From Ceraceosorus guamensis (taxonomy: Eukaryota; Basidiomycota; Exobasidiomycetes; Ceraceosorales; Ceraceosoraceae), in contig NW_020289996.1 of the NCBI RefSeq assembly GCF_003144195.1, forward strand, positions 373,419 through 437,418: a stretch of DNA of 64,000 nucleotides. The letters are read 5' to 3'. The notes beneath the pieces are model-generated. The model was not told the DNA's origin, ran no database searches, and saw only the letters and a list, made by a program, of their open reading frames with translations. How positions within the stretch are numbered: position 1 is the first letter of the stretch; every line of letters starts with the position of its first letter. Shown here piece by piece: positions 6,319-55,843 of the stretch. Both the position numbers and the translations under genes were made by a program.

Positions 6319-7558
6319 CGTATTGCGTAAGGGTCTTGAAATCGCGGATCGGTGGTAGCAAGGGGGCTAGCTCGTCAGCAAGCGATGCAGCAGGAACTAT
6401 GCACAGGTCGCAGCAAGCGCACCTTGATTAAGAGAGGTGCCTTGCGGTCCAGCCGAAGATTCGCTTAGTGCTCTGGCAGAAATGTCAAAAGGTGTGGGAT
6501 GCCTGCCGCACCGAGACCTGCTCAGTACGTAGGTGGACAATTGTGATTGGTGTGAAGGTGAGTGATGTCCTGCATGTGGACCCAGAAAGATATTCAGAAG
6601 CGATGCAGCCTTTTACGACACTGCCGTTCGACTGAATCCTTCCAATGTCTAGCTTTTACAACGACTCCACGAGCGCCAAGGGAAGTGCTACCGGTACGCG
6701 GCGCAATCGTGGGCTGAAAGAGGCACGCTGGGATACTCGCGTATCGGTATATTTGGCCGAGCGTCCACCGCATCGATGCACGCATAGCCAGTGCAGTTCA
6801 CTGAGCTTACCAAATTGGATCAGTACCGTCTACCCTCTAAACGCCTTCAATCGCATTTTCAAGACGTGCTACGGCGGCTTGGCGTACCCCAGTGCTCGTC
6901 GCCGATAGGATCATATCGGACGGCATCGCAGCCTTCCTTTCTCAGTCGAGGCAGTCGCTGATATAAGGCATGGCTCGAGCTCGACTGTCATAGCCGAAGA
7001 GAAGCAAAGCACCCACGTGGTATCAGGCCCTAAGCACTCCGGTGACGTGCTCATTCACGATTGGGGCATTGTGGTCTTGCGCACCCAAAATTGTTCTCAA
7101 TTGTGACGGTGCGTCGCACCATTTGCGTAAGAGACCTTGGAGCAGAGCCCGGCCGGGATAAGTGCGAATCTCGCACGACTCCTACCGTAAATATCTCACG
7201 CAGCTGAAGGAACACGCTTTAAGCGCTGCGCAATCGGTGATCGATCTATCAATCAAGTGAATGGGGCTAGTGATTAATTATTACGGACAATCATGCCACC
7301 TTGTCCGATGCCAACCTTGGGTGAGGTGAAAGTGTGCACGAATGAGTGGATTTGGGTAGCCCTAGTCCAGAAGCAGTGACTAACGTGTGGGCGAAAGGGC
7401 CCAGATGTCCACCCAAGCACGGTGATACCACTTCGCTTCCACCGCGTGCCCCGTCGATCACCGTGGAATTGCAGCTTGTGTTCGTGATGGGGAACTACGA
7501 AGGGCACGCTTGTTTGTGAACCACCTGTTCTTGAACCTCAGCCGCGAGCGTGCACACC
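6319..7558. other. Spacer inside the secreted-protein group
   Basis: No gene recognised. A plus-strand frame of 87 codons at 6645-6908 (start MSSFYNDSTSAKG) and a minus-strand frame of 77 codons at 7274-7507 are open but show no domain or signal peptide. The promoter of the 6318 gene lies at its left edge. Confidence 0.5.
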
Positions 7559-17501: not shown

Positions 17502-19945
17502 ATGGCGTCCAGTCAGGAAGCGCAGACGCTACTTAGCGTGATACACCATGGTCAGTGGAAGTTCCAGCTAGTTTGCCTGCTTCTGAACGACGCTGACCAG
17601 TGCTGCCCTGCCACGCATTCTAGAGCGACAAGAACCGGGATCTATGCTGTGCGCGCAGCACGCTCTCAATGCCCTACTTCAGGGCCCTTACTTTGATCCC
17701 TCTCAGCTGGCAGGTGTGTTCAGGTTTCGCGCGTTCTTGTGCGGTGACCGCGCTTTGCTGGCTGACTGTCTTGCCGTTCTACCCTGTCACAGAGATCGCC
17801 GCGCAGATGGATGATCTAGAACGGGCGCAGCTAGACTCTGAGGCGTGGTCGTCGCGGGGCGGAGATGAAGGCAGTCTCAACGTTGATGCTACGGGTCAGT
17901 ACCAGAAGGGGGACAAAAGATAGGTATCGCTAGCTGATTGCACCAGGTCAACTGCTCAAATCAACCTTCCACATCCTCACCCCTGTTGCAGGCTTCTTCA
18001 GCGCCACTGTATTGGAGAAGGCGCTGTCTGTATGGGGCTTACAGCTCGTGCGCTGGCGATCTCAGGCGATGAGCGCTTTCCAAAACGAGCCTGAGAAGCA
18101 GCTCGCTTTCATTCTCAATCTGGAACAGCATTGGTTTTGTCTACGTCGCTTCGGACAGGGCTGGTGGTAAGTCCTTGTTGAGAATGCCGCTCGCTAGCCG
18201 GCAGTGGCTGAAGCGGACACTCAACGTTGCGTCTATGTTAGGTTCAATCTCAACTCTTGCATAGATGCGCCAGCGTGGGTAGGCCCATCATATTTAGGGG
18301 CATTGCTCGACCAGGCGGAGTCTGAAGGTGAGCTTGTGTTGACGTGGGATAGGTAACCCTTCTCGATCACGTTGCTCACACGTACTTTCGCTTACATGTC
18401 TGCGCAGGCTACTCCGTCTTCGCCATCGTAGCTGCTGAGGATGCTATGGGCGTGCCATTGTCTACAAGTACAGCGGACGAAGTTGCGCAGGCACTTCCCA
18501 GCGCTGATGCAGTGCTCGCTTCAAACGCCAGTTCCGCTTCAGCCATCACCAAACAAGCGCAGGGTCTCCGGCCTAGCAGTGAAAGCGGTCCATCCGCAAG
18601 CTCAGCTTCACGCGATAATTTCGAAGAGGATGCTGAGCTTCAAGCAGCCCTGCGCGCAAGCATGCTTGACGCGAGCGAGGGAGATGGCGCGGTAAGTGTA
18701 CCAGTGGACACTGCATCTACCAGTCAATCTCCGGCAGCACCAAGGGGCACACGGCGCAATCGGAGTATTAACAGCGCGAGTGAAGAAGAAGGTGGCGTCT
18801 CGCAAGACGAGACGGACGAGCACGTCGACGAGATCGCGCCGTCGAGAAGGCGTTTCAGAGCGGACGACACTTTGCGGAGTTCGTCGAGCACTCTTCTTGC
18901 CCCAACGGACTCTGCTGCCCGGCCCAGCGCCGGCAATCGCCGACACTCTCGAGCCGATCAAAAGGACAAAGCGGCTCGCCAAGGCCAGAAGAGCCGTGCT
19001 GCGATCGATCACGACGAGCAAGAGCTTATGAGAGCTATGGAAGCAAGCTTGGGCGCGATGACAGGCGACCAGCAGACAGTCGCTCAGAACTCCACTTCAT
19101 CCTCCACAGGCACCTCTGCTTCGGCATCTCGACCCACGCGTGCAATCGACATCGGTGGTGCAGGTGTTCGCGGCAATGGTGGACGGCGACGAAGAGCGCG
19201 CGGAGGTGGCGGTAGAGAGGACCCTATAGCGATCGGCTCAGACGGAGAAGAGGATGAGGAAGAAGTGATCATTTCTCGATCTAATCCTAGATCTCCATTC
19301 TTGGATCCTCTGCTAGCAGCCGCATCTCGAGATGACGAGGATGTAGCTGACCTCGACGATGATGAGGACGAGGGAGATGATGATACAGGGCCGCTTTCTA
19401 ATCCGGAACGAAGGCAAATTGGGGTCGGTGAGGAGGAGGATGACGAGGATGCATTTCATAGTCTGTCGGAGGGAAGTGAAGGATTTGAAGAAGTATCAGC
19501 TTCCGCCTGGGCTCGTGCACGTCCTGCTGGACCCAGCACGAATAGAACCTACGATGACGAAGATGCGGATCTGCAACGAGCACTGGCCGCCTCGATGCGC
19601 GACGTCGAAGGTGGGGGTGACGATGTGGACTGGTCAGCTTTCGAATGGCAAGACGATGGAGGCGCCTCGACGAGGAGGCAAGACAGACCCAGCACGCCCG
19701 AAGATGTCGGACGCATCAGAAGGTTGCGCGAGGAGGCGAAGAAGAAGGCCGAAGAGGAGAGAGAGGATGAGGAGAGGAGACAAAGAGGCGAGGCGACTAG
19801 GGCTGAGCTGGCTGAGAGAGCTGCCAAAGAGGCGCTCGAGGGCGCCAAAGGTGGCAACGAAGATGATGATTCTGAGGAGGAGGAAGAGCAATTGAGCCCT
19901 CAGGAAATGAGGGCGAGAAGGATGGCTCGCTTCGGCGGGCCGTAG
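17502..19945 (+). CDS. ATXN3: Ataxin-3-type deubiquitinase (Josephin domain, three UIMs)
   Basis: Six exons, 17502-17550, 17624-17713, 17793-17894, 17992-18166, 18242-18327 and 18408-19945, give 679 residues. Ataxin-3 is a cysteine protease that trims ubiquitin chains and works with p97/Cdc48. The Josephin domain fills residues 1-185: Gln19 and Cys26 in HHERQEPGSMLCAQHALNAL, His127 in LEQHWFCLRR and Asn143 in WWFNLNSC form the catalytic set. Three ubiquitin-interacting motifs follow, at about 240 (DAELQAALRASMLD), 370 (EQELMRAMEASLGA) and 551 (DADLQRALAASMRD). Between them lie Ser-rich and strongly acidic linkers. The C-terminus is a charged helix ending MRARRMARFGGP. It is much longer than the human protein (about 360 residues). 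There is no polyglutamine run. Confidence 0.93.
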
Positions 19946-20211: not shown

Positions 20212-21005
20212 CTAAGCCTTGCTTGCTGGCTGGTAAGAGGGAGGGGGTGGTCCGGGTGGAGGGGCGAAAGATCCTCCATTGTCGCCCGGAGGCGGTCCTT
20301 CTGGGGCTTTGTAGCCACCTTCGGGTGGGCTAGTGGGTGGCTGGTAAGCGCCGCCAGCAGGTGGGTAGCCCGAGTTCTGATATCCGTATTGGTTCTGGTT
20401 TTCTTGACCGTAGCCTGCTCCATAAGCATTGTATCCTTGCCCTGCTCCCTGACCTTGAGGTGCGTAGTTGGAGTTGTAGCCGCCTGCTGCGTACGGATTG
20501 CCACCACCCTGTTGCTGATTGTAATTCAATGTGGGCTGCTGCTGCATGTTGTTCGAGGGTCGGATGAAATAGCCTTGTTGCCGCTTTCTCCTGCCGGCCA
20601 CGCTGCACAGAAGGATCAAGATGATGATGAAGACCGCGATTCCGATACCTGCGATTGCAAGAAAGGAGAGGGGAAGGATGGACTGCTCAATATGTAAAAC
20701 CTTCACGTAATTGCGCCTGAGCCTCTTGCCCTCGCCACCTCGCTTGTTAAACGTAAGAAGCGAAAAGTGTACGCACCGGTACCGATTCTAGCGCCTCGGG
20801 ACCACCTGGAGCATTCATACACCCTTCCTAAGGATGCGGCGAAACAAGGACTGGTCAGTCACGATGAACGACTGAAAAGCTAGGAGGCCAATGCTGGCCG
20901 ATACGTGAGCTCACCAAGTCTGTCTCTGCAATAATCTTGCCTGCGCTCCAAAGTATGGAGCTGTTCGGTGGCCAGAGAGGCCGCGCGCTGCACCAAGGAA
21001 GGCAT
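20212..21005 (-). CDS. Single-pass membrane protein with Gln/Gly/Tyr-rich PPxY tail
   Basis: Exons 21005-20915, 20823-20777 and 20682-20212 give 202 residues. A short N-terminal segment with cysteines (ERRQDYCRDRLGCMNAPGGP) is followed by one membrane helix (SFLAIAGIGIAVFIIILILL, residues about 53-72) and then the stop-transfer group GRRKRQQGYF. The cytosolic tail is low complexity, made of NQQQGGGNPYAAGGYNSNYA-like repeats, and ends in proline-rich PPPGPPPPSYQPASKA, which contains a PPSY motif able to bind WW domains of Rsp5-type ubiquitin ligases. The overall plan resembles fungal RCR-type (Congo red resistance) membrane proteins, but I do not assign it to that family. The second acceptor (AAG at 20824-20826) is the only one that keeps frame; a three-base-downstream start on exon 2 alone would give a shorter protein lacking the cysteines. 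Confidence 0.65.
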
Positions 21006-26261: not shown

Positions 26262-27218
26262 TCAAACGTTGTTGGCGCAAGTCCACGTCTCGTCTCGCTC
26301 CTGTGGTCTGCCAATGATCTTGTAAGGCGGAACCTTGCCGCCCAAGCATTGCTGAATGGTCATGAGCTTGTAGCCTTGCTTTTGCAGGCTGGGAACAACA
26401 GCTGGGGCAACCGTCTCGACGCTGGATTGGTACGTCTCGTGAGAGAGCGGCATGTGGGGCTGGGGGTACTTGAGCGCGTTGAGCGTCGCGATGGATGCGG
26501 ATGGCGAAGCTCCGACGGAGTCTCCGCTGTCCACGTCCCAGGTGACGACGGTCAGACCGTGCTTCTTGTTCAAACGCTCGACGCAATTCTTGTCGCACTC
26601 TCCGTAAGGTGGTCGAAAGTAGGCAGGAACACGGCCAATGATCTTCCACAGAGCTTCTTCCAGCCTCTCGATCTCGAGATCCTGCTGTTCGGGACTTAGA
26701 GAGTTCAGATGTGCGTGTGACCAGGTGTGGCTGCCGATCTGATGGCCTGCAGCGACGGCCTTCCTGAGGGTCTGCACGTTGTTCTCGTCGTAGATGCACG
26801 ACCAATTCATGCCGTTGACGAAGGAGGTGTACTTCGCTTTCGCATTGTCGAACAGCATCTCCACCTCGCCGTGGTAGATTGATGGCCCGTCGTCAAAGCT
26901 GTAAGCTAGGTCGCGGTCGCAGTTGTTCAGCGCTCCGCTGAGTGGGGAGATGACTGAAACTTCGAAAGTCTCGTTCTTGCGCCCCGACAAGTTGGACAAG
27001 ACACCTGCGGCCAGAGGTGGCATGACTTGTTGCTCTTCCGGAAGGGGCGGGCGCGTTACCGATGGGACCGTCTCCAACCTTTGTGGCACGACCCAAGCAC
27101 CGTGTCGAGCAGTATTGACCCGATACACGTTTGGATGTTCGGTAATTGGCACGCAAAGTGCTATGGTAGCACAGCTGACTGCGCAGAGAACACATGCAAC
27201 ACGGCGTGAGATCCGCAT
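26262..27218 (-). CDS. Polysaccharide deacetylase (chitin deacetylase-like, NodB domain)
   Basis: A single exon of 318 codons. The ATG at 27218 begins a basic-plus-hydrophobic signal peptide (MRISRRVACVLCAVSCATIA); a non-ATG extension upstream is ignored. The NodB fold is complete: LAYSFDDGPSIYHGEVEMLF holds the catalytic base and first metal ligand (Asp-Asp), GHQIGSHTWSHAHLNSLS the two histidine ligands, RPPYGECDKNC motif 3, and TWDVDSGDS motif 4. Such enzymes remove acetyl groups from chitin to make chitosan in the wall, and pathogens use them to hide chitin from hosts. There is no C-terminal hydrophobic stretch for a GPI anchor, so it is probably released. Exact substrate (chitin or another acetylated sugar polymer) is inference. 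Confidence 0.88.
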   Translation of the reverse strand: MRISRRVACVLCAVSCATIALCVPITEHPNVYRVNTARHGAWVVPQRLETVPSVTRPPLPEEQQVMPPLAAGVLSNLSGRKNETFEVSVISPLSGALNNCDRDLAYSFDDGPSIYHGEVEMLFDNAKAKYTSFVNGMNWSCIYDENNVQTLRKAVAAGHQIGSHTWSHAHLNSLSPEQQDLEIERLEEALWKIIGRVPAYFRPPYGECDKNCVERLNKKHGLTVVTWDVDSGDSVGASPSASIATLNALKYPQPHMPLSHETYQSSVETVAPAVVPSLQKQGYKLMTIQQCLGGKVPPYKIIGRPQERDETWTCANNV

Positions 27219-30200
27219 GTTGTGTCTGTGACGTATGCTGAAGGTGGCTGGTCGGTAGAAAGCAGTGTCTGCACTCTGACTGAGGTCCAAAGGGTGGAAA
27301 TCCACCGATGTGAGATAAAGAGCGTGCGTGAAGAAAAACGAAATCGGTCGACCAGCCAGCCACCTGTGCTGACCTTGTACCGTGAGGTGAAGAGGAAGGA
27401 TTAGGAGTCAGGAAGAGGGGCGGGGAGAAGCAAAGAACAGTGAAGTCTAGAAATGAGGATGAAGAAGTGAGGATGAGTAGCCGGGTCGTCTGGAGTATGG
27501 AACGGAGCGAAGCACTCGAGTAGTGGCTTATCGGTACCACTAGTGACCCGGCGGGCGGAAGCACTTCCGAGTCAGCTGTGCGCCTGCTCAAGAGCTGCTG
27601 GCGACCAAAGGAAGCAAGGGTCCATCCAACGTCAAGTGCCGACCAGTCGGCATTGCGTGAAACACCCATGCGCCCGAGCGGCGATTTGTTTGCATTGCCA
27701 AGATGTATCGAGCGATAGCTGAGCGGTAAAGAAGTTGAGCGGTCGGAATGCGTGGTGGAGATTGTCGTTGAGCAATAAGCATGGTACGTGCTTCATTGCT
27801 TCTCGACTGTGAGATACATGTACCACTGCTTTATGAGACACACGCGTTGAGGTCACCTGCCCACTCCGACCGCCAAAGTTTGCCCAGGCTAGCGAAGACC
27901 CTCGGGTGTCGTGTCCCCAAAGAATCGTGTGCGCTGTGCAGCGGCGGCGCAACGCCTATGTACCTACCTGGTCGTGTGGACGACTGTCGTATCAACTGAC
28001 CGCTGCATGGAGCGCAGCCACCCAGCTTTGCTGCCGTTGGACACTTCGCCCTGCTGGCCGTTCCCGCGATCGCAATGCGCAATCGACAGAGTCTCCAGGG
28101 AGGAGGGACTCGCATCTAGCTCGCAGGAAGTGCTGCTTGTCTGTACCCGCTGCCAACTCCCCCTCCACATGCATCCAGCTGCTTGCCTCGATGGCGACCT
28201 TTCCGTCGCAGGAGAAAGTCCGCGCAAGCACAAGCACGTTTAAACGCAACGGCTTACCGAGCCCAACGGCATCTGGCGACTTGGCCCAATGCACAGCATA
28301 CGGAGCTGGGTAGAGCTCTCGTAGTCCGCCGCGGAGCCGGCGCAATCGCAACTCGCCGTGGCGGAGCTGTGTCTTTCCATCTCTTCTGCACGAATAGTCA
28401 CCATGAGTAGTGATGAGTGGGAGTCGGAATCACAATCACGCGAAGATCATCCCTGCACGCGTCCACGATGGTGGGCCACATATGCTCTAGCTGCGACTGC
28501 ACCACGCGCTTGCAGACTGGGAGTCCCGATACAATTCTGATTTAGGTTAATTTGAATTCGACTTGCACAATTCCCCAATGCATGGCTCCCGGGCTCTTCG
28601 CGGGCCCTCAGATTCTTCGTGCCTTGCCTTTGATGACTCCATTGGTGTGCCCATGTGCATTATAGCTGATGCCTAGGCTGCCTGCCTGGCTGCAGCTGTA
28701 GCCTCTGCGGTTCCTTGCTCTAATGCCGCCAATCAACAGAGCTAGTTCTTGCTCCTGCACGCGCGCATTCGGCTATATCTATCTGTTGCTATTATTATAT
28801 AGCGACTCGATCTCTAATTACGACTCTTGATTACCTAGCTACTACTCTTGACCGTCACACGACCGGTGGGCACGCTCAACGGTCAGCTCATGCAGAGGTA
28901 GCCGTAGTGTAACTAAACGAACACTTTAAGTGTACCAATTGGGGAATGTAGCGTGCCCAAACTCGTGACTCATCAGACCTTAATTCGATACATATACCGG
29001 TTGCTGAGATCGATCTTGACTTTCTGGGAAAGCCTTTGTGCAAAAGTAAAGCACGAATCACAGGCTTTGATGGACTTTTGATTCTTTGGTGCCTGCCTTA
29101 ATTGAGTGTCTGCCATCTTCGACTTGTGACACAATTAGCTACGGACGTTGCAAACGCGGACTACTTCCTTCGCCTTTCAACTGCTGCTATACTATTACTA
29201 CTACTGTCGCGGGAAGAGGGCCTCTCGAAGCGAGCAATCAAGAATGAGTTCGCCCGAATGGCCTAGCTGCTCTTCCAAACACAAAATCAGCCGATTTTTG
29301 GACCAGTCAGATGACGCGCGCTTGTTGCCAATGAAACCCTTGCAAGCGTTGCCAACGGCCAAACAAAACTTAAAGCGCAAGCCAACGGCCACGCAGACGA
29401 GACCGCGCATGAGTTCGTGCATATGTGAGATGGCGCCAGGGCAACGCCGATTTGGTACCAATGCGCACATGCCTGAATTTCCAGCGTGGCGGCTACGGTA
29501 TACACTGTGACTGTGACTGCATGTGCTCACGCTCTTGACCGTAGGAGCTGAAATCGTAAATTGCGATTGTTCCACAATCAAATGAAGCTTCCGAGAATAG
29601 TTCAAATAAGATACTGTAACATTCCCCTCTGCTGTAATCCTGGCAGTGATCATGAAGAGCGTGCACTATCTTGCGCGCTTCTGAACAACTCTATCCAACT
29701 TTTGAGGGACCTGCTCCACGCGCAAGCCATCATCCACCAATCGCTGATGAGTGAATGCCTCACGTTGGCAACCTTGAGTGTCCGTCACCCTGCATGCAGC
29801 GGTTTTGGTAGAATCACCAATAGCGGGTGCAACCAGACTTATGCAGGCGCTTTCGCCCGCAGACCCTAGCGGCGCCGCCAGCAACGACGGGTCGAGTTTG
29901 CGGAGATTAAAAATAGAGCTGAGTCGAGTTCGTCGCCCGATCTACACAGCTATGTTAAAGCCTTGTGGTCAAGAGCAAGTGCATCGCCACATTATGACCC
30001 GTTTGAAAGACGCTGAAGGTCCCAACAGCGTGGCATTTACGCTTTGATGCTCAAATACCCGAAGTCGCTGACGATTCTTGAAATGATTTGAAAGTCTGAA
30101 TGACCAGCAAGATGCATCCTGCGGTCTCAAGCACCACAACCGCCTCTGCCCTTCGCACATGCTGAACGAATTCTCTTTCGGCGTACAGACATGATCGCGC

Positions 30201-30826
30201 CGTGGCACACGCACGCTTTCATGAACCTGAATCCCCAACGCCTTCCCGTTGCGTCTTCCTTCAGGTAGCGGCGCTGCACACTGAGACCAACGTTGCAAAC
30301 ATTCCATTCGCTTCGCCCGCTTCGAGGTACCGGTACAATCGAGCACCGTTGACCTCTGCGTCATCTCCGATGCTTTCGACATGCCGTTCATGCAGATTCA
30401 TACCCCTGCAAGCTTGCAACATAATGCCGTGCTGGTTGACTCAACTTCACATGAGCCCACGCTCGGAGTCTACGTCGCTCCGAGGCATGTCTGTGGCTTG
30501 GCATCGTCTGGCTCTTCTTGCTCGGAGTGAAGGCAACAGCGCAGAGTGGCACAGAACGCCGGAGTGGTGCTGATCAGACTCGTCTCTCTTGCTACCTCTA
30601 TCTCTGCCGGAGACGCTGCCTGGCTACAGTCACTTCAGTGACTAGCCACCATACGTGCCACAGTCACAAGTGCATCGATACGTGACTGCGCTTGGAACAG
30701 CCATCACCTAATCACAGCCTCACACGCATCTCTGCTTCCTTCCCTACCCCACGCTGCTCGGACTTGCCTCTCCATCGTCTGCGGTGGGCTCCTTGATGGG
30801 AGTTGACCGGCTTCCACAAGAACGGC
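27219..30826. other. 3.6 kb spacer, no gene recognised
   Basis: The longest frame is 150 codons on the minus strand (29201-29653), with no domain and no start context that persuades me. An AT-rich patch lies at about 28780-28870 and a run of ACT triplets near 29190-29205. The promoters of the deacetylase gene (left edge) and of the large secreted-protein gene (right edge) must be here. A spliced gene of unknown family could still hide in it. Confidence 0.5.
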
Positions 30827-33800
30827 ATGCGAGTGCACACACTCGCCATCGTCGCACTACTGTGTTTCGTCACATTCAGGCACGACCTCAAGCCGTCGCG
30901 TCCAGATCCAGTTCCAGCGTCTGCACTTCAAGTGCTTCATTTCGAGGCCGGCGATGGTAAAGCAAGCGCCGTGGAGCTTTGGTTCTCGGAAGAGGGGCCG
31001 TCTGCCAACACCACAGACCCGTCAACAGAACCGCGAACATGGTCGCGAATCTTTCGACGTCTTGCACTCCTGCAGTCCAAAATTGCTAATCCATCTCAGA
31101 GAGCCAGGTCTCCTTTATCTCTCAGGCCGATCGGCAACTTCACTCGAGCCAACACAGCGCGAAGAGAGAAGGAGGAGAAAGACAATCCCATTCGATCAAG
31201 GATCAAAAGATCGTCGAAGCGCAGTTCTGATTCGAAAAAGGAGGAGAACAAAAAGCATGGCGACAAGCGAGGCAAAGGGAGACCAAAGTCGGACAAGTCC
31301 AACGATCGCAAGGGCAAGAAGCACGGCGAGGCCCGCGAAAAGGACCACAAGAAGGACTCAAAGTCGCATCGATCTTCAGACAAGGCCAAATCAAGCCATA
31401 ATGATCACAGCGCTTCCGCCTCTAATGGAGCGAAGCGAACGGACCTCCCAAAGAAAGGTCACAAGTCTTCCAAGGGCAAGGAGTCGGATCACCATAAGCC
31501 TCATGACCATTCTTCAAAGTCCTCAAAGACTCGCGAGACACGGTCTCATGGCGCAAAGAAGCCCAAAGCCACTCATTCTGGTGACCGCGGCACAAAGCAC
31601 GTCAAGAGCAGTCATGGTAAACACAAGCCAACGAGCTCGCATCACACAGCAAGCCGGAGACATGGCAAGCCTGGCCATCATGGTCACTCCACCCATCACG
31701 CTCCTAAACCGACCGCAAAGCCACATTCGAAGCACCATTCCTCGCATCAACACTCTTCGCACAAACACCCCACTCACCATCGATCGTCCAGTCATCACAC
31801 GACAGATCACCGAGAGCACCATCATCACACGGCTTCGCATCATCATCACACGATGCATCGCACCGATCAACCTCACAAGCCTGCGCATCACCACAGCTCG
31901 CACCACCACAGCTCGCACCACCACACGTCACATCATCATAGCTCGCACCACCACAAATCTTCTTCCCATCACCATCACAAGTCAAAACACCACACCTCGA
32001 AGAAGTCTCACGCGACGGGACGACCCTCTGGAAGTTCTAGCGAACCCATCGCTATTGAATCGTCAGGGTTCCCCCAGCCCACAATAGCACCTAGCAGGCC
32101 CACGAGTCGGCCTTTTTCTCCCTCTACACCTGCAAGCGCGTCAACCACCACGCCGGCCGCTGCACAACCCAGCTCGGGCTTGGCAACGTCGAGCTCTGCG
32201 GTCAGTGCCCCACCAACTTCGAGCGGAACGAGCCCTGCAGCAGGTGATCAGCCGCAAAGCTCGGACGGTGGAGCGACTTCAGGCTCCTCCTCTCCTGTTG
32301 GATCTGAGCCACAAGGCGCGGATTCAAGCGGCGACGGTGGGAGTGGTAGCTCAGCTGATTCTAGTGCAGGTGGTTCGACGTCGAGTTCCACGTCCGACGG
32401 TACAATCTCAGTCGGTCCCGGTGGGGAAGGTGACCAGTCCACACCAGCCTCGCCCGCCGGATCATCTTCAAGCAGCGGTGGCGAAGGAGCAGGGAAAGGA
32501 CCCAATGGTAGTGGCAGCTCAGCTGATTCTAGTGCAGGCGGTCCAATGTCGAGTCCCACGTCCGACGGTACAATGTCAGTCGGCCCAGGCGGGGAAGGTG
32601 ACCAGTCGACAGCATCCTCGCCTGCAGCCTCACCTTCAAGCAGCGATAGCGAAGGGGCGGGAAAAGGACCCGGTGGTAGCCAGGGAGGCGGCACGGGCGA
32701 TGCTGGCAATGCTGGCACATCTGGAACCTCAACTCCATCAGACGGATCGGTACCAAGCTCTGATCCGAGTGCCGTACCAATCGTCATTGGTGGCAACCCT
32801 GAGACCCAAGACGGGTCTCAGCCTGCAGCGGGAGAAGGCGGCACTAGTGGTGCGTCGCCTGGCTCACCAGACGGCAGTGGTGGGGCTGGGGCCGGCACGC
32901 CAGCTGTTACTGGCGAACCTTTAGAGTCCGGATCGACGACTCAGAGTGGGGACGACGGCGCATCGACAGCGATGCCCCCAGCTAGCTCCGGAGCATCTGG
33001 TGAGTCCTTTCGTGGGAAGCCGATTGTTTGGTTCGAGTCTGGTTGACACATCGAGGCGTAACGTTGGAGCAGGCGCCGAAGCGGGTGATACTCCTGTCGG
33101 TACGGTCGATGGCATGGGCGCCACTAATGATGGTCCGAGCGACACCGGCACATCTCCGGGGACCCCCGAATCGCCATCGGATCCAACTGCAAGCACAGAT
33201 CCAAGTGATACTCCTATCACCGTTGGCGACGATGCGCCAGACGAAGATCAGCCAGATGCAGTTGACGAGGGCGATGAAGCTGGCGGGGCGTCTGACGGTC
33301 TGATCCCAGTCGTTGTTGCACCTCAATCAGCTGATCTACCAAGCGCAGAAGACCCTGCTTCTGCTGAGGACGGAGCGGATGGCGAAGCAGATGAGGATTC
33401 GGGCATGATACCCGTTGTGGTAGGGGACGATGCAGACGCCGACGATGGTCAAGGAGGCGAATCGAGCTCAGACGCAGGCATGGTCCCCGTTGTCATCGGA
33501 GACGATGCAGATGCCGACGCCGGAGATGTCGACGATGAAGAGACGGCCAACTCGAGTCCAGACGCAGGCATGATTCCTGTTGTCGTCGGAGGGGATACCG
33601 GCCCCGACGCCGGCAATGCGGATGGCGAAGAAGTACCCGACTCGAGCTCAGGCGTAGGCATAGCTCCGGCGACCACCGGAGATGATGATGGTGTCGATGC
33701 CGACGGAGACGGAGATGGAAACGGAGACGGAGACGGAGACGACACCGAAGATGGAGGACCGACCGCTTCAAGCTCAGATGCAGGCATGATTCCTGTCGTT

Positions 33801-36276
33801 GTCGATGGTGATCCTGACGCTGATCCCGAAGACACCGAAAATGGAGAAACATCAGACTCAGGCATAGACGCAGGCATGACTCCCCTAGTTGTCGGCGATG
33901 CCGATGCCGGTACAACTGCTGATGCGGGTGATGCGGGTGACGCTGGTGCAGACGGGGCACCAAGCTCAAGCGCCGATCCAGGCATGATTCCTGTCGTCGT
34001 CGGTGATGCAGACGCCGCAGATGATAGCGCCGACGGGGCAGACGACTCAAGCCCCGAGGATGGCTCCTCCGACGCTGCAGGCTCGGGAGCTGACTCGGGC
34101 ATGGTTCCAGTAGTGGTTGATGATCCCACCGCCGATGCTGACGCAGCGGACGCAGCAGACTCAGATGCAGAAGAAGGCATGGTCCCTGTGGTCGTCGACG
34201 ATTCCGGCGAAGACGACGATGAAGCCGATGAAGCTGCTGCTGGCGCGGCTGCAGCACCAGGCATGGTCCCACTTGTGGTGGGCACGCCTTCTGACGGAAC
34301 AAGTCCGGCAGGCGGAGGTACTACATCCAATCCATCGACGACGACGACGCCCCCTCAACCTGTCTTTGATGCCGCTTACGTTGCCCAGAAGATTCGACAA
34401 GCAGCGCTCACGGCTGCGACTGACGCCATAGACCAGCTGAATGCAGAAGCTGCGGAGGACTATGCACAAGCGCTGGCAGACGCTACTGCCGACTTGGATG
34501 CCGATGGAGATGGTGCCATTGACCCGACAGCGCCGCCACCCGCCTTGCCGGACCCAAGCGACGCAGTGATGGTCACCGCTGCCGACGCAAACACTCTTGC
34601 GAATGCAGTCGCCTCCACTAGCGCGCGCCTCGTCCAGATGGCTATTTTCGGTGAGTCTGTGCCTGACTCAGTATGTCAGCCCGCAAAACGCCGCCGAAGC
34701 TGATTCAGCGTTCGGACATTGCCGTTGATATTCAGGGGGCGTCCCAGTCGGACAGCCAGGAGAAGTTGACCCAGGTGCGTCGCCGTTGGGCTCCGATTCG
34801 TCAAATACAGTGCCTACCGTTGGTGAGCCTGGCGGCGGCGCTGGGGTCGCAGGAGGCACTGGCAGTGCGCCTGCCAATCCTGGGTCTCCGATTGGCTCTC
34901 CAGGAACCGCCCTGGGAGCTGGTCAGGGCTCGATAGGATCAGGAACGAGCGCTTCAGGACCTGGCTTAGGGTCACCATCTCCTGGATCGACCAACGGTCC
35001 AGGCGTAGGCGGCAGCAATCCGGCGTCTCCCGGAAGTGGAAGCACGTCTGGAACGTCTAGCCCTCTGCCAGGATCCGGCGCACCCCAAGCCGGGGGAAAC
35101 GCACAAAGCCCGACTGGCGGCAGCGGTGTGGCGAGTGGTGGTAATGCCGGTACAGGATCAGGTCCAGGCGCAGCTGGTCCTCCTCCGAATGCAGGCGCTG
35201 GTGGTCCTTCCGGTGGAGCAGGCGGCCCAGCTGGCGCAGGTTCAGCCACTCTGCCGGGCGATCCTAGCATCGGTGGAGGGGCTGCTGGAAGCGATGCTGC
35301 CCCTGGCGATCCTGATGCCGGTGCTGATGCAGCTGACGGCGGTGCAGGAGCTGACGCTGATGCTGGTGCTGAGGCTGATGGCGACCTCGCTGGTACTAAC
35401 AGCGAAGGTCCGGACGCCAGCGATCCGAGCGATGGTGACAATCTCCCTGGTGGTGCCGACGCTGGTGCCGATGCTGGTGCTGGCGACGGCAATGCAGGAG
35501 ATGATGTTGACGCAGGACCCGATTCTGCTGGCCCTGATACCGATGGAGATGCTGGGCTCGATGGAGCGGTCAGTGCTGGGGCGGAAAATGGGCCCGATGC
35601 CGACGGAGAAGCCGACGGAGTCACTGGATCTGTTGACCCAGATGCCAGCGACGACGCGGAGGGAGGCGGCTATGCGGACCCTCATGCCGAAGGCGAAGGG
35701 GACGCTGAAGATCCTTCTGCAGCTGGCGCGGATCCAGACGTTCCGGACGCAAGCGAGCCTCTAGAGCCGGATGATGGCGACGATCCAGACGCTGACGCTG
35801 ACACGCTCGACGATCCGAATTCGACAGCTGATGGAGCGGACGCGGACGGAGACGCGCCAGACGGCGAAGCGGAAGATGCTGGTGCCGATGGACCCATTGC
35901 TTTGTCCGACTTGGACGAGGCCGACATCGATGACCTAGCCAGCTCGATCGGAGAGGCTGCGGCAGAGACTGTGGAGGACATGGTGCTCGCAGGAGATCCT
36001 GATGCTATGGACGAAGATATATCCGATCTAGCAGACGCCATCTCTGAGGCGGTCGAGGCATCTGTCAGCGATGCCTTGACCGAACTCGTTGACGCGCTAG
36101 CCGAAGCCGAAGCTGAAGCACCGGATGCAGATGATCCACCAGAGGACGATGAGCCGATCGAAGTTGCGCCACCCGACGACGAAGGCGATGACGCCGCAGA
36201 CGGGGACGACGAAGCCGAAGACGAAGACGGCGCGGATGATGGGGCGGGAGACGATGAAGGCGATGACGACGAGTAA
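30827..36276 (+). CDS. Giant low-complexity secreted protein: His/Lys-rich N-half, Asp/Ala-rich acidic C-half
   Basis: Three exons, 30827-32999, 33073-34650 and 34736-36276, all joined in phase 1, give 1763 residues. The ATG at 30827 begins a signal peptide (MRVHTLAIVALLCFVTF). Blocks in order: basic Lys/Arg/Ser/His region (about 110-300, with dibasic sites such as IKRSSKRSS); histidine block (about 304-395) of HHHSSHHHSS-type units; Ser/Gly/Thr/Pro region (400-725) with two copies of a 56-residue unit; a stretch (about 800-1135) with ten or more GM(I/V)PVVVGDD-like units between Asp/Ala spacers; Gly/Pro/Ser region (1251-1420); then Asp/Ala/Glu to the end, finishing in acidic helices (ADAISEAVEASVSDALTELV). 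Basic and acidic charge are separated along the chain. No enzyme domain. Possibly a wall, matrix or metal-binding protein; that is inference. No family recognised. Confidence 0.75.
31739..32020 (+). repeat. Histidine-rich low-complexity block in the giant protein gene
   Basis: The DNA is a degenerate run of CACCAC/CATCAT with TCG or AGC triplets, coding for HHHSSHHH-like units; one unit (AGCTCGCACCACCAC) is repeated almost exactly at about 31894-31940. Histidine makes up close to half of the residues. Confidence 0.85.
32342..32677 (+). repeat. Two direct copies of a 168-base in-frame unit
   Basis: The unit starts at 32342 and again at 32510 (AGTGG[TC]AGCTCAGCTGATTC), 168 bases apart, so 56 residues per copy. 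The copies are close to identical over the first 110 bases and more diverged after that. Confidence 0.85.
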
Positions 36277-46424: not shown

Positions 46425-49100
46425 ATGGACGTCAGTTTTAGGCCTCCCGAGCGCTTCGACGAAACTTCAAGCAGGCACAAATCCATCAGCTCAGCTTCGT
46501 CCGCATCGACCGCTTCCATCATGTCCGTCGATAGCCGCCAAGTCGACGATGACGTCGACATGAGCATTCCAGAGCTTTCGCGCTCTTACGAATCGACGCG
46601 CAGCTTCGACCTGCGCACACCTATCAAACCCACCTATGCACCACTCGGTCCCCTCGCGAAGATGTCCAATGCAACGACGCGCCGTCAGGAGGGCTTCGAG
46701 GTCGCTGCAGGTCCATTCTCGAGCCAAGATCTGGAAATCGCTGAAGAGCATCTCAACGGTGGAGCCTACTCGAAGAGCGCTCAGGCAAGTGGACCACGCC
46801 GGACGTCAGAAGACTCGCAAGCCGTCCTCGCCGACAGGCGCTCGCAGCTTGGGCTGAGCCTTGGCTTGGAGCTTCGTGGCTTGCCCCCGCTTGAAGGCGC
46901 GAAATCCGAGCTCGTCGGCAGCCGCGAACCTCTCTGGAGCGAAAATTTGCTGGAACGACGCAACAACAAGTCAAGCGCAAAATCTGACGGACCGCACGTG
47001 GGAGCACACAAGTTGAAGATCAACTTGCCGTCTGCGGAGCCTTACGGATCCAACAGACTGCCTCTTGCTTCCGGCAACTCTCTCTACCCCCAGACACCTG
47101 GTGGATCTCTGTGCTCCACTGCTCGCGATGGAGCGGTCTCTGGTGGGCCTCCTATCAGCCCGTTCGAGCCACCCACTCCCCTACGAGCCGTGCAGGACGC
47201 GCGCACCACTTACTGGTCCCCAGCAACCAACGGTGCCGGGTCTGCCGCGGATGGTGGATGCCAAACTGCTGCGTTTCTCCGTTCACCCAGCACGCCCACA
47301 GCAAATATTGGCCGCATCGGTCTCCAAAGAGTAGGATCCAGCCCTTTGTCGCCCTTGTCTACAGAGTTTGCATCCTCCATGAGCATCAGACGACCCGAGC
47401 GGCGACCCTTTTCCCGCAGCGGAGGTAGCGGCGGCGCGAGCAGTACCAATAGCAGCGAAGCAGCTTCAACGTCCTGCTCATCAACAAGCACCGCTTTGAC
47501 GCCTCCTTTCTCGCCGATCGCCTTGGCGCGAAGCTTGCCGGGAGAGTCTGCAGACGGATTGAGCAAGATGCAGCGCACTGGCACTTCTGGATCAGCGAGC
47601 TCCACCAGCTCGTCGAAAAAGCGCCAGAGTGATGCTGGCCACGCTGTTGTTCGCTCTTTGAGCGCGACTAGAAGCAAATTTTCCAAGCCGGCCAAGGTCG
47701 CACCGTACCCTCAACGCGAAGACCTCAACCTGCCACCGTCGCCTCTGTCTCAGCCTTCGTCTCAGAGCACAGCTGACACCTCGCTTGGGGACAGCCCCTT
47801 GATGCTCCCAACTTCATTGAGCGTCAGCCAGAACCTCAAGTCTCCCGTCAGCGGGCTCAAAATCCCATCCTCGAGCCCAATGACAAAGTCGGCGTCGGCT
47901 CCAAGCCCCAAGCTCACCGTATCTGCCCGGCACTTGTCGAACCACCGTCTGCATGCCGACTTTGCTCGTCAATATGTACTGGGTGACGAGCTAGGTAGTG
48001 GTGGGTTCGGCTTCGTCGTCCGCGCCACCCGTGTTTGCGATGGGTTTCCTGTCGCCGTCAAGTTCATCTTCAAGGACAAGGTGCCCAACCACGGTTGGGT
48101 GCGCGACCCCAGTCTTGGCGTGATTCCCATGGAAGCGTTTGTTTTGAAGGTCGTCAAACACCCTGGCGTTGTCAGATTTGTCGACCTCTTCGACGATGAT
48201 GCCTACTTTTATCTGATCATGGAGCACCACGGAACACCCTGGCAAGCACCGGAACCGACATCCGCCAAGACACCCAAGAACGCCAACGAAACCACTGCTC
48301 AAGAGAAGACTCCTAAAGGAATGCCTACTTCCTCGCCCATGGCGACGTCCAAGTCTCAACCGTCAGCGGTAAAGGGGTCTCCCAGCTTTGCCATCTTCCC
48401 TCCCGAGAGCAAGATCGCTTCGCCGCTCAAGTTGGACACTGCGCTGGCAGCGGAGACCGAAATCGCGTGCTCGCCGATCTCACCCGCATCCGCAATCTCG
48501 CCCACAAGGGCCGAGAGTTTACGCCCTGCGCCCATGGAACGCCGCTCATCCTGCGATCTCTTCGAGTGCATCGAGCAACACTCGCGTTTGTCCGAGAACA
48601 AAGCTCGATGGGTCTTTGCCCAGATCGTCGAGGCTGTCTACCACCTTGACACCATGGGCATCACTCACCGAGACATCAAGGACGAGAATTGCGTCATCGA
48701 TGCTGACTTCAATGTCAAGCTCATCGACTTTGGCTCCGCCGTCATTGCCGATCCGCGCAAACCACCTCCATACTTCAATCGCTTCTTCGGAACGATGACC
48801 TTTGCGAGCAGCGAGATTCTGCAAGGACAGTCGTATCGTGCTCCTCAGGCCGAAGTTTGGAGTCTTGGCGTCCTGCTCAGCATTCTCCTGAGTGGAGAGG
48901 GTCCGTTCGCAGATCAAGATGCCGCTATGCGCGGTAAAATCACTCGTCCTAAAGGTGCATGGAGCCACGACGCTCTGAACCTCCTTCTAGGCTGCCTGGA
49001 AGTCAACCCTGATCGTCGCGCCACGATTGCGCAGGTGCGCGACCACCCGTGGGTCCGCTCCGCCTGGTCGCTTCGGGGACTTCGTCGCCCTTCATCGTAG
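46425..49100 (+). CDS. PAS-kinase-like Ser/Thr protein kinase (Psk1/Psk2 type catalytic domain)
   Basis: A single exon of 891 codons. The ATG at 46425 (MDVSFRPPERFD) is the first in frame; eight codons upstream start with GTG and are ignored. Residues 1-510 are Ser/Pro/Thr-rich and disordered; I see no PAS domain. The kinase domain starts at about 517: LGDELGSGGFGFVVRATRVC (ATP loop), VAVKFIFKDK (Lys), HRDIKDENCVIDADFNVKLI (catalytic loop, about 748), DFGSAV (metal site, about 767), FFGTMTFASSEIL, and VWSLGVLLSILLSGEGPF. The C-lobe resembles PAS kinases and Pim-like CAMK kinases, which tune carbohydrate flux in yeast. A disordered insert of about 100 residues splits the domain between the hinge (LIMEHHG, about 598) and SCDLFECIEQH (about 708). 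Target unknown. Confidence 0.82.
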   Translation: MDVSFRPPERFDETSSRHKSISSASSASTASIMSVDSRQVDDDVDMSIPELSRSYESTRSFDLRTPIKPTYAPLGPLAKMSNATTRRQEGFEVAAGPFSSQDLEIAEEHLNGGAYSKSAQASGPRRTSEDSQAVLADRRSQLGLSLGLELRGLPPLEGAKSELVGSREPLWSENLLERRNNKSSAKSDGPHVGAHKLKINLPSAEPYGSNRLPLASGNSLYPQTPGGSLCSTARDGAVSGGPPISPFEPPTPLRAVQDARTTYWSPATNGAGSAADGGCQTAAFLRSPSTPTANIGRIGLQRVGSSPLSPLSTEFASSMSIRRPERRPFSRSGGSGGASSTNSSEAASTSCSSTSTALTPPFSPIALARSLPGESADGLSKMQRTGTSGSASSTSSSKKRQSDAGHAVVRSLSATRSKFSKPAKVAPYPQREDLNLPPSPLSQPSSQSTADTSLGDSPLMLPTSLSVSQNLKSPVSGLKIPSSSPMTKSASAPSPKLTVSARHLSNHRLHADFARQYVLGDELGSGGFGFVVRATRVCDGFPVAVKFIFKDKVPNHGWVRDPSLGVIPMEAFVLKVVKHPGVVRFVDLFDDDAYFYLIMEHHGTPWQAPEPTSAKTPKNANETTAQEKTPKGMPTSSPMATSKSQPSAVKGSPSFAIFPPESKIASPLKLDTALAAETEIACSPISPASAISPTRAESLRPAPMERRSSCDLFECIEQHSRLSENKARWVFAQIVEAVYHLDTMGITHRDIKDENCVIDADFNVKLIDFGSAVIADPRKPPPYFNRFFGTMTFASSEILQGQSYRAPQAEVWSLGVLLSILLSGEGPFADQDAAMRGKITRPKGAWSHDALNLLLGCLEVNPDRRATIAQVRDHPWVRSAWSLRGLRRPSS

Positions 49101-49850
49101 GAATCAGCTCCAATCGTTGTCAGCCACCCTTGCATCACGTCCCGTCGTTTTCTCGCGTCACCTTCAAGCTACGTCTATCATTTTCGCGCAAAGCAAGACT
49201 CAATCGCGGCCTTTGCGCGCTCATCATCGAATTTTCCCGCGACTCAAATGCCACATCTCTCTGTATAGCTCCATTCACGAACTCCTCTTAATCGTCGATA
49301 TGACTCACGTCTAGCCTCCTCTATCCACTTTCAACCTTTGACAGTCCATACTGAGCGCAGCGCAACGCATTCAGCGCACTACCCGGCGATGGAACCCCCG
49401 CATTCCTAGACTGTCGAATGCTCATCTTTGTAGCCTTGTAGCCGAATCGCACTCCTCTGCCGCACCAGGCCAAGTCTCTCAAATCGACGGCGTCGCCTCT
49501 CAGGGAGCGCAATCGCATGCATATTAATCAGGTCATTCATGTGATTGTGTTCGATCAGGTCATTGTGGTGACTCGGCTTGATGTGAGGAGGAGGAACACT
49601 TCGTTCTTCGCGGCGACAATTCTACGGCGCAAAGGGATGGGAAAGTGGCCTTGCTGCTTCTACAAGCCGGACCGAGGAGACTTGCAGGTAGGCTGAAAAC
49701 ACTCTTCACATGCGGTCAGAGGATTGTGCGGCGACGCGTCGTGTCAGACCTTGCAAGCTGGACTCGAGCATCATTTGCTCGCGCAAGTCGTGCCAGTACG
49801 CATTGCATTATCTCTCGATCGGTGACGTCACATTCTCTACATGTCCGCGT
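49101..49850. other. Convergent spacer
   Basis: Between the kinase stop and the ARO1 stop, so two 3' UTRs. No gene, repeat or terminator recognised. Confidence 0.5.
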
Positions 49851-52800
49851 TCAAGCAGCATTCTGTTTGTGATAATGATCCCAAGCAGCGCGCTCGATCT
49901 CGGCCCGCGGTGCTTGTCTGCCAGTCCAGCGCGAAAATTGATGGCATCCTTGCTCCAAGACGATTGTGATGCCAGGTATGCCGGTCCACAATTTTCCTTG
50001 TCTGAGATTGTGTCGATCGGGCTCAGATACGGCGGCAGCATTCGTCTTGTCGACCAACTCCAACAATGGCGTGTAGACGGGCTTGTCTGAGGGCAGATCA
50101 AGCAGGGCAATGTCGCGTTCAGTGTCAACAGCTCCGTCATTGGACACACATGCAGGTAAGACTTACAAGCCATGTCGATGACAACACCTCCTTTTGGATG
50201 TGCAAGAATGGCAGGAGTGAGCACGACGCCGGCTCCGCTGGCCGGGTCGAGGCTGACGCCCTGGGCTGGCACATTGCAGACGATAGCGCTGGGCGCGATC
50301 GGCACAAGATTCAAGTCCGCAATCACGTTAACGTTCCAGCTCTTGGGCACTTCAGCGGCCAGCTTTTCCGCGTTGGCGATCGTTCGATTGAAAAGCCAAA
50401 TGATCCTAGCCCCTAGCTGGTGCATAGCAAATAACGCGGCCCGCGCCGATCCTCCCGCGCCAATGACGAGCGCGGTGAAGTCGGTGCTAGAAAGTTGAAG
50501 AGGCGATAGGTTGCGCCTGGAGCACTCAGTAATTGCAATCCAGTCTGTGTTATCTCCGACCAGGTGCGCCGGCTCTCCTGGCGCAGCGTTATGGGGCCGC
50601 TGTGGAATGATCGTGTTGATCGCGCCTATGACCTGCGCTTCGGCCGAGACGCTGTCTAGATGCTTCGCAATGGCCAACTTGAAAGGCATTGTGACGCTCG
50701 CACCACCGAAATCAGGTTGTCGAATCAAGTCGGTGATGCGTCCGTCCACCGCATCGGTCTCAAACAGGGCGTATCGATGCGGCAGCCCGAGATGCTCAAA
50801 CCCAGTGTTGTGCAAGACGGGGCTCAGCGAATGTGAAATGGGCGTACCGAGCAGGACAAACTTTTGAGGACTGAGAGCGCCTGTCAAGGCCCTTGCTTGG
50901 TTGACTTGCACCACAGAAAGCTGGCCAGGCGCAGCAGAGGTTGGCATCGCCGGGTGTGTAACGGGCAGCAGTGTATTGTTCAGAATCCGACTGAGCTGAC
51001 CTGCCACGCCCATGTTGATTGCTATCAGTGGCTTGGCATCCGGTCGAGCGGATACCTTGGCCCTGAACGCCTCTAAAGCAAAGTTGTCTGCCGGAGAAAA
51101 GGCCCTACCCACAATCTTGACAACGTCTCCAAAGCGCAAACCCAGCTCGTACTGCTTGAGGGTCTCAGGTGAGTCCCAGCGCATTTCGCCGTTCCAATTG
51201 TGATGGGAAGCAATGATATGCGAGTACCCTCGATGAGCACGAACTGCAGCCAGTCGGTCCTCGGCATGGCGCATTTCCACATCAACGTACTCGCAACCTT
51301 GACGGAAGCCAAGCTTGATGAGCTCAAAGTACTCCTCAATGGCATCGTCAGGGAACATGCCGCCTTGGCTTTTGGTGCGAACGGTGAAAATGACTGGCAA
51401 ATGTGTGCGTTGTCGGAGGGCTGCCAATTGAGTCGCGACGTAGAATGCATCGGGAATGCGCGGCGTTTGAGGCTGCACGCCTTCCTCGCTTAGAAGGTCT
51501 ACGCGAAGCTCGATCGCATCGACGCCGGCGGTCAGCGTCTCGACCAGAGAAAGAGCGGGGGTGACATCTGCGAATGTGAGACTGAGCATGAATGTCTGCC
51601 TGCCTGGGCTGCCTAGGTCCGCGATCTGATTGGTCTCAACACCAGCTATGAAGCGGAAGTACCTCGCGATCTCTTCGACGAGGCCTTGCGCGCGTCGTAT
51701 AGAGAGTGCGCGGCTCGGTGGTCCGGACAAACTACTATTGAGTGCGCCAGCTTGACCATTCGCGAGACCGCTTGATGCATTGTGGCCCGTCTCAGCGTCA
51801 AAAGTGTCGATGATGGCGGTATTGCCAGAGTAGCTAACGAGTTCGTAACTCGAGCATTGATAGAAGAAAGGGCGTCGTCGCTTGAAGACCTCGCGAACAG
51901 GCTCTCCGTAAGATGGACGGTCCGAGGTGGAGAGGAACTTCACAACCTCTTCAAAGTCCCGCATGACGTAGACGACGGGCCCGCGGGTACGTGCGTACTC
52001 CTGAAGCAGAAGTCGATTGTCTTCCGACTCGATCACACCTCCACCTAGTGAGATTAGGTGACCGGAAGCTTTGGTGGTCAAGAGCTCCTTGAGAATCTCC
52101 GTTTCTTTGGCGCGGAAGGCAGGCCAGCCGTGCTCAGCGACAAAGTTATTGAGGGTGTATCGCTCATTGAAGACTACGTCAGCATCGACAAAGGGTCGTT
52201 GCAGCGCAGCCGCACCGAAACCACCCAAATAAGTTTTGCCCGAGGCACGCATGCCAATGCATACGATGCTGGCATCCCTGGCGTACTGGACAGGTGTAAG
52301 ACTCTTACTGAGTGTGCTCAGGGTAGCGCTCGTGGAGGCGGCCGGCCGAGGCGTTTGGATGTCCACGCCTTCTAGCTGCAGGCCGAGCGTAGCGTTGATG
52401 TCGTCCCAGTAATTTGGCCACGTCTTGGCAGTGCACCGAGCTTCATCCATGACCACGCCCGTACCAGGCACTATGGCAGAAAGGATACTGAACGCCATAG
52501 CGACGCGATGATCGTCGTAGCAATGCACCTGAACACCCGATCTAAGCTTAGAGGGATGAACACCCCAAATTTCTAGACCATCTTCGTGTTCTTGAGTCTT
52601 GACGCCAAGTTTGGCGAGCTCGTCCATCATGGCCTTGATGCGGTTGCACTCTTTCACTCTTTGGTTTGCAATGCCGGTGATACGCGTTGATGAAGCGCCT
52701 CTCTCACCAGGCGCGGCAATGGCAAACAAGACTGAAGCCGTGAGGAAGGCGTCCGTCATAGGTTCCATGTCGATGGAGCCGACCTGACGAAGTTGACCGT

Positions 52801-55134: not shown

Positions 55135-55843
55135 GTTGATGACTTGCGGAACTTCGATCGCGGAGGAGACGCGAATTTCAATGCAAAGGCTTCAGAACCT
55201 TCGTCGGCTTCGGACCTTGCACGCCTCCTTGCCTCCTCGTGGTTCGTAGTCTTGCCGTCGTGTCTGTACGTGTGGTGCTATGGGAACTAAGAGGCAAAGA
55301 AACCGAGCAAGCTACGGAGGTTGAAAGAGGTGCGAGTCGAGTCTGTGAAAGACGTGCGCAGGAAGCTCTTGGCTTCCCTGACTCGATTTCCATGCAGCAT
55401 GCATGCAGTCACCAGTAGAGCGCGAAGATCCTACGGGGCGAGTCGAAACGGCAAAAAAGTCAGGCGGTTGGGGTCGTGCACGTGACTGATTTTCCGCGTG
55501 CGACCTGGGTTCGACATGCACGCGGGTGATGTGACTTGCGCTCGCTCGCACGGGCTGCCGAGTTGCACGGGCCTAATGCGTGCATGCAACCGCCTCTCCA
55601 TCCCTGCTGTGATCCTATTCAGTCCTCCTACTCGGACCATGGACACCGTCGTCAGCATCAGTCATCTTTGTGGTCAGTGTAGCAACACTCTTTTGGCGGA
55701 CTGCTACCGGCTTGCGAGATGATGCAACATCTTTTATCACCGTCAGCCCACACCACGACTGGTATCGACACGATTGCATCCGTAGAAAGCCCCTCGCGTC
55801 TTCTCGTTGAGCTCGCTTGGAAGGACAACGCCTCCACGTCAAC
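55135..55843. promoter_or_regulatory. Shared upstream region of ARO1 and the TBC1D20-like gene
   Basis: A 709-base gap between divergent start codons, so it must hold both promoters. No gene seen. I do not see a clear Gcn4-type TGACTCA site that would suggest general amino-acid control of ARO1; GTGACTGAT at about 55483 is only a near match. Confidence 0.5.

Follow-up and report, generated by a model that had tools for sequence, protein, structure and literature searches.

A very long, charge-segregated and probably secreted orphan protein of Ceraceosorus guamensis, with a tentative role as a surface coat

Introduction

Rsp3 (repetitive secreted protein 3) of Ustilago maydis is an acidic, disordered, repeat-bearing protein that attaches to hyphae through its N-terminal part, binds an antifungal plant protein, and has been shown to shield the hyphae and protect them from plant antifungal proteins, according to PMC5923269. 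The Kex2-processed repeat proteins (KEPs) of fungi are described in PMC6339444 as carrying a signal peptide and three or more repeated motifs with KR, RR, or KK sites between them. Histidine-rich squid beak proteins, in turn, phase-separate (PMC6884462). Here, we describe a gene of Ceraceosorus guamensis that shares features with each of these systems. It lies at 30827 to 36276 (+) of a 64,000-nucleotide stretch of contig NW_020289996.1 (positions 373,419 to 437,418 of the forward strand; assembly GCF_003144195.1), referred to below as the window, and it encodes a chain of 1763 residues with strongly segregated charges. The chain is most likely routed into the secretory pathway, and we tentatively read it as a surface coat.

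In smut fungi, disordered secreted proteins with repeats are difficult to annotate, and this gene adds a much more extreme plan of the Rsp3-like build. Ceraceosorus lies in the Exobasidiomycetes, and the genus is known from leaf disease as well as from healthy leaf surfaces: as reported in PMC11687029, C. bombacis and C. africanus cause leaf disease in Bombax, and C. guamensis and C. americanus have so far been recorded from symptomless leaves alone. The motif-bearing acidic block and the histidine block of the protein yield clear, cheaply testable predictions, and a natural chain of this kind would offer a convenient model of protein materials that respond to pH.

Gene model

The gene runs from an ATG to a TAA and encodes 1763 residues once two introns are removed. 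Three long open frames of the + strand underlie it (30797 to 33046, 32925 to 34703, and 34729 to 36276). Exon 1 (30827 to 32999) contains residues 1 to 724 plus the first base of codon 725; it is followed by intron 1 (33000 to 33072; GTGAGT...GAGCAG, 73 bases), the in-frame continuation in exon 2 (33073 to 34650), intron 2 (34651 to 34735; GTGAGT...ATTCAG, 85 bases), and exon 3 (34736 to 36276), which ends at the TAA. Openness alone is little proof of this join, since many splice choices leave the chain open; in the stretches scanned, 1428 GT/GC...AG combinations did so, and the 21 with consensus donors gave 1747 to 1764 residues. Across the window, the + strand contains the donor sequence GTGAGT 35 times, and the sense strand of the gene has just two of these, one at 33000, 46 bases ahead of the end of the first frame (33046), and one at 34651, 52 bases ahead of the end of the second (34703). 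Because the only two such donors of the gene sit at its frame breaks, the three-exon model is supported, and the splice reconstruction bore out the coordinates, the length, and the frame through three exons given in the original prediction. Alternative acceptors of intron 1 at 33069 and 33081 likewise preserve the frame; the exact acceptors could move by a few codons. An out-of-frame ATG at 30796, 31 bases upstream of the start codon, could repress translation if transcribed. Since it would hinder translation if it were in the transcript, the position of the transcript start matters.

Charge layout and composition

The encoded chain is an asymmetric block polyampholyte. A basic, histidine-rich block at residues 62 to 400 (31010 to 32026, +) contains 78 Lys and Arg, 68 His, and 27 Asp and Glu, which gives its 339 residues a net charge of +51, or of +119 with all histidines charged. 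It is followed by a linker of 324 residues rich in Ser, Gly, Pro, Ala, and Thr (residues 401 to 724; 32027 to 32999, +; net charge, -25), which is likely O-mannosylated. The remaining 1039 residues (725 to 1763) form an acidic part with a net charge of -251. Within this part, a block that bears hydrophobic motifs (residues 725 to 1140; 33073 to 34319, +) has no Lys, Arg, or His and a net charge of -114, residues 1141 to 1250 are Ala rich, a Gly/Ser/Pro linker is recognizable by composition at residues 1251 to 1430 (34736 to 35274, +), and a C-terminal block (residues 1431 to 1763; 35275 to 36273, +) with 120 Asp and Glu, no Lys or Arg, and a net charge of -120 ends in DDDE. The Ser/Gly linkers that had been predicted were thus found, whereas the two predicted halves of opposite charge proved very unequal, residues 62 to 400 standing against the far longer and more highly charged residues 725 to 1763. 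Because acidic charge exceeds basic charge about fivefold at neutral pH, self-neutralization could extend to no more than a minor portion of the acidic residues 725 to 1763.

The whole chain has a net charge of -227, or of -155 with every histidine protonated. It contains 231 Asp but only 3 Tyr, 2 Trp, and 10 Phe among its 1763 residues, and its one Cys, at residue 13, is in the signal region. The segregation of charge is beyond chance: the largest net positive prefix was 49, reached at residue 399, and was at most 5 in 2000 shuffles. The claim of a very long, mostly disordered, charge-segregated, and probably exported chain is supported. Rarity was judged in 264 kb of the genome (the window together with 20 stretches of 10 kb), which yielded 300 stop-to-stop open reading frames (ORFs), counting shadow frames, with a length of 150 residues or more. 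Per 100 residues, exon 3 ranked first for acidity (-47) and exon 2 second (-34), and exon 1 ranked first for histidine (44). The joined protein has windows of +22 and -47, and windows of both +15 and -15 were found in only 1 of the 300 single ORFs. That ORF lies outside the gene described here (stretch L017, 3952 to 5202, -; 417 residues; windows of +17 and -15), which was unrelated by any comparison made.

Eleven copies of a GM(I/V)PVVV motif (33297 to 34280, +) stud the first acidic block, at residues 800, 835, 860, 890, 920 (a degenerate copy), 962, 992, 1028, 1067, 1093, and 1121. Between residues 776 and 1140, Val, Ile, Leu, Met, Phe, Trp, and Tyr number 57 in all, and 50 of these bulky hydrophobic residues fall within the copies. 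The motif family, like the helix-loop-helix described below, is absent from the original prediction. A strict DNA pattern of the motif had 7 matches in the whole 23.8-Mb genome, all of them in this gene; a reversed control had 1. A regular beta-solenoid built from the motif was considered and found no support, given the irregular spacing of the copies (25 to 42 residues) and the lack of strands in a single-sequence structure model of low confidence.

Coding evidence and orientation

The internal repeats record selection on the protein. The Ser/Gly linker contains a tandem duplication, two copies of a 168-base (56-residue) unit (32338 to 32673, +), and in the coding frame the copies differ at a proportion of 0.31 of synonymous sites (pS) and 0.08 of nonsynonymous sites (pN) (Fisher P = 0.0007, with sites taken as independent). 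Among the eleven GM(I/V)PVVV copies, pS was 0.61 and pN was 0.18; omission of the degenerate copy (residue 920) gave 0.62 and 0.10. Synonymous sites have drifted and the protein has been kept, demonstrating purifying selection on the protein within its internal repeats.

An artefact of gene modeling would consist of two or three separate genes, or of frames held open by low-complexity composition with the real gene possibly on the other strand. Antisense frames of 189, 301, 275, 248, and 205 residues are among those present, in the duplication an antisense frame with shared third positions comes close to the sense frame (pS, 0.28; pN, 0.10), and the out-of-frame ATG ahead of the start also counts toward such an artefact. 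When the synonymous codons of four antisense frames were reshuffled, the sense frame stayed open in 300, 300, 300, and 179 of 300 trials, so that openness is symmetrical over these four spans. By synonymous codon choice, sense scored slightly higher than antisense in three of these spans, but two stop-ridden antisense frames scored above it, and as a coding test this measure is uninformative here. Against the artefact, the sense strand is open throughout, whereas each antisense frame carries at least 21, 6, and 3 stops in exons 1, 2, and 3, respectively; over the five other frames of both strands, stops number 2 to 35, 6 to 33, and 3 to 34 in the same exons. Both donors lie at frame breaks, whereas the minus strand has a single GTRAGT (31777), which coincides with no end of the four antisense frames. 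The longest antisense frame has 301 residues, compared to a mean of 426 expected as a shadow of the sense protein, and 300 of 300 synonymous reshuffles gave one at least as long. Whole-codon scores preferred sense in all four antisense-ORF spans. Given the unbroken sense chain, the GTGAGT donors, and these whole-codon scores, a sense gene is well supported, short of proof, and we regard an artefact as the least probable of the explanations considered in this work.

N terminus, export, and processing

Residues 1 to 24 (30827 to 30898, +) form a probable signal peptide region, in which MRVHT is followed by a 12-residue hydrophobic core, LAIVALLCFVTF, with a mean hydropathy of 2.94 over 12 residues and 1.48 over 19. 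The core is short for a membrane anchor, and no 19-residue window after residue 30 exceeds a hydropathy of 1.6. A low-confidence model of residues 1 to 140 places a helix at residues 2 to 19. No clean small-residue cleavage site lies beside the core; the first one, ASA, is at residues 31 to 33. Read by eye, the predicted signal peptide therefore has good n- and h-regions and a poor cleavage region, and the protein most likely enters the secretory pathway. A glycosylphosphatidylinositol (GPI)-anchored wall protein was rejected as a candidate, since the chain ends in DDDE and has no hydrophobic C-terminal anchor signal.

Seven KR or RR sites (residues 77 to 278) and seven KK sites (residues 137 to 393) all fall within the basic block. 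Kex2-type sites at residues 127 to 132 (IKR-SSKR) could release the first ~130 residues. The last of the KR and RR sites is at residue 278, so cleavage at these alone would leave the histidine-rich stretch joined to the acidic part; KK at residue 392, a weaker kind of site, could separate the two.

Structure and domain searches

Residues 1 to 140 and 780 to 1250 were modeled with AlphaFold2 without an alignment. The mean predicted local distance difference test score (pLDDT) was 49.6 for the first model and 45.9 for the second, which had two helices (residues 1158 to 1200 and 1219 to 1249) and no strands. The predicted helix-loop-helix (residues 1158 to 1249; 34371 to 34646, +) has block pLDDT values of 73 to 77 in the first helix and 52 to 63 in the second. 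Between the two predicted helices lies an EF-hand-like loop, DADGDGAIDPTA (residues 1200 to 1211; 34497 to 34532, +). DxDxDGxID is the pattern of EF-hand loops, and this loop fits it but lacks an acidic residue at loop position 12. Like EF-hand and dockerin-type calcium loops, it comes after a predicted helix; unlike them, it is a single loop with no acid at position 12 and no profile match. No Pfam family, the EF-hand profiles included, matched any of the three frames spanning the exons at E values of up to 1. A phmmer search of PDB sequences with residues 1154 to 1251 gave 9 matches (best E value, 0.16), among which those to calmodulin were insignificant (E values of 1.7 and above), and Foldseek with the model of residues 780 to 1250 gave one PDB match, meaningless at an E value of 8.5. 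By composition and low model confidence, the remainder of the chain is best treated as disordered. The claim that the protein has no globular domain accordingly stands for most of the chain; the predicted pair of helices around the DxDxDG loop is where it would fail.

Relatives

No homologue was found among 5.77 billion proteins either for the N-terminal 135 residues (277 candidates; E values of up to 1) or for residues 780 to 1262 (7985 candidates scored; E values of up to 0.01), the candidates being proteins of 0.55 to 1.75 times the query length (~970 to 3085 residues) that share exact five-residue words. Because of these limits, a relative that is distant or annotated as two or three shorter genes would be missed, in Ceraceosorus bombacis as elsewhere. 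As a control, the neighboring kinase (46425 to 49097) matched a C. bombacis protein of equal length with 97% identity over the full length, which places at least this protein, and presumably the remaining C. bombacis proteome, in the database. Among C. bombacis proteins of comparable length, none that starts like this protein came up. In prokaryote genomes, residues 780 to 1250 gave 592 pattern matches and no relative, as expected. Five pieces of the protein, compared with the 23.8-Mb genome of C. guamensis itself, each matched themselves alone (E values of up to 1 for two pieces, 0.1 for one, and 0.01 for two). As far as these searches reach, the gene is an orphan without a detected paralogue. 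In the literature consulted, we recognized no fungal protein with the same secreted charge-block or histidine/aspartate-rich plan, which is no proof of absence from print. The original prediction knew of no fungal family with this plan, in agreement with the Pfam and protein searches, and its guess of a smut lineage was right in a wide sense, C. bombacis being the nearest relative found by the neighboring kinase.

Function and alternative explanations

Like Rsp3 as characterized in PMC5923269, the protein is large, negatively charged, and mostly disordered, has degenerate repeats and a possibly processed stretch behind its probable signal peptide, lacks a GPI anchor, and is probably secreted. 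Unlike Rsp3, for which the same paper describes a cysteine-rich domain and a Gln/Pro-rich region, it has one Cys, a Lys/His-rich block, and GM(I/V)PVVV motifs. It resembles the KEPs, as PMC6339444 defines them, in being a fungal protein with a signal-peptide-like start and internal repeats, and it differs from them in that its repeats are not parted by KR, RR, or KK. A Kex2-processed repeat precursor was rejected as a candidate: the motif block at residues 725 to 1140 is without any Lys or Arg, so no dibasic sites lie among the repeats. In worm cement, opposite charges are on different proteins, and squid beak proteins are Gly and Tyr rich. Our protein is akin to the latter and to sandcastle-worm cement, which are extracellular and made of histidine-rich or separately basic and acidic chains (PMC6884462 and PMC11277488); it departs from both in being one chain with very few aromatic residues and a large acidic excess.

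Of several weighted readings of the function of the gene, we favor, at somewhat below even probability, a very long disordered secreted surface-coat protein on or in the cell wall, Rsp3-like in its working. The reading draws on the unbroken frame, the selection within the repeats, the basic n-region and hydrophobic core, the extreme composition, the hydrophobic residues held in motifs, and the presence in the window of other wall-related genes (a polysaccharide deacetylase and an RCR-type chitin regulator). Through its Lys/Arg/His block (residues 62 to 400), the chain would be anchored either to anionic polymers of the wall or to the acidic blocks of further copies of the protein, and this hold would tighten in the leaf apoplast, whose mild acidity would add charge to the histidines. 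The Ser/Gly linker would space the chain outward, and the acidic block would form a hydrated negative shell or shield, within which the GM(I/V)PVVV motifs could act as weak hydrophobic cross-links. Such a shell could take up Ca2+, chitosan, or cationic host defense peptides. The gene structure, the composition, the repeats with the selection on the protein within them, and the lack of a second copy of five pieces are observed; export, location, binding partners, and shielding are what we infer from them. Several observations weigh against this reading. The -3/-1 cleavage region near the signal core is weak, no homologue demonstrates conservation between species, and by charge alone the basic block is unexceptional (+22 per 100 residues, tied for seventh, with 8 of 300 ORFs at +22 or above). 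The cysteine-rich domain of Rsp3 has no counterpart in a chain with a single Cys, and the likeness to Rsp3, drawn from features and not from sequence, is one of build and not of descent, so that we do not place the two in one family. The neighboring wall genes may be there by chance.

Self-association, coacervation, and metal or mineral binding, all suggested in the original prediction, are possible. An extracellular material that assembles itself, a complex coacervate within one chain that is switched by histidine and condenses to a glue or capsule as the outside pH falls, is the best placed of the alternatives to the surface coat, though unlikely. It would account for a histidine-rich block that precedes a long acidic one, for charge segregation far beyond that of shuffled chains, and for repeated hydrophobic motifs within an otherwise hydrophilic stretch, and the phase separation of squid beak proteins lends it a precedent. 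Its charges, however, are far from balanced even with the histidines charged, and Tyr, Trp, and Phe, the usual stickers of known histidine-rich coacervates, are almost absent. The fuller proposal of a complete pH-switched material (histidine-rich cation, spacer, and sticker-studded polyanion) that would condense on the leaf or in the apoplast, having arisen in a single lineage unrelated to known proteins, is doubtful, and we rank it above the gene-model artefact and below every other alternative. Ranked between these two proposals, and on a par with each other, are two further explanations that we also consider improbable. One is a metal or calcium buffer of the secretory pathway or wall, in which polyhistidine would bind Zn, Cu, or Ni and the Asp-rich blocks and the EF-hand-like loop would bind calcium. 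A histidine content that peaks at 44 per 100 residues, the abundance of Asp, and the position of DADGDGAIDPTA between two predicted helices speak for it, and the single loop without its position-12 acid, the insignificant calmodulin matches, and the lack of a Pfam match speak against it. The other is an intracellular protein, for example a nucleolar or chromatin-associated one, whose start would not be a working signal, whose Lys-rich block would be a nuclear localization signal, and whose acidic part would be a tail like that of histone chaperones. The poor cleavage region behind the hydrophobic core fits this explanation, and nucleolar proteins typically contain long acidic tracts and clusters rich in KR. 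A strongly hydrophobic 12-residue core directly behind a short basic start and the lack of any Pfam domain argue against it, and neither polyhistidine nor a Ser/Gly/Pro linker of 324 residues is usual in nucleolar or chromatin proteins.

Neighboring genes in the window

A polysaccharide deacetylase (Pfam PF01522; E value, 1.3e-26) is encoded at 26265 to 27407 (-), 3.4 kb upstream of the gene; we read it as a putative chitin deacetylase type with a secreted start. A small frame at 20215 to 20787 (-) has one hydrophobic span, a tail rich in Gly, Tyr, Gln, and Pro, and a match to RCR (chitin synthesis regulation, resistance to Congo red; E value, 3.1e-6; 28.4 bits against a cutoff of 27.8). Two adjoining frames at 5806 to 6366 (-) and 4180 to 4761 (-) have secreted-like starts and no Pfam match, and the former also contains a short His/Lys-rich stretch. 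An AROM-type multidomain gene of the shikimate pathway, with matches to six Pfam families, occupies 49811 to 54394 (-), and a frame at 54415 to 55191 (-) reads like its missing N-terminal part. A very acidic frame at 18353 to 19942 (+; -30 per 100 residues) has a match to a ubiquitin-interaction motif that falls below the cutoff.

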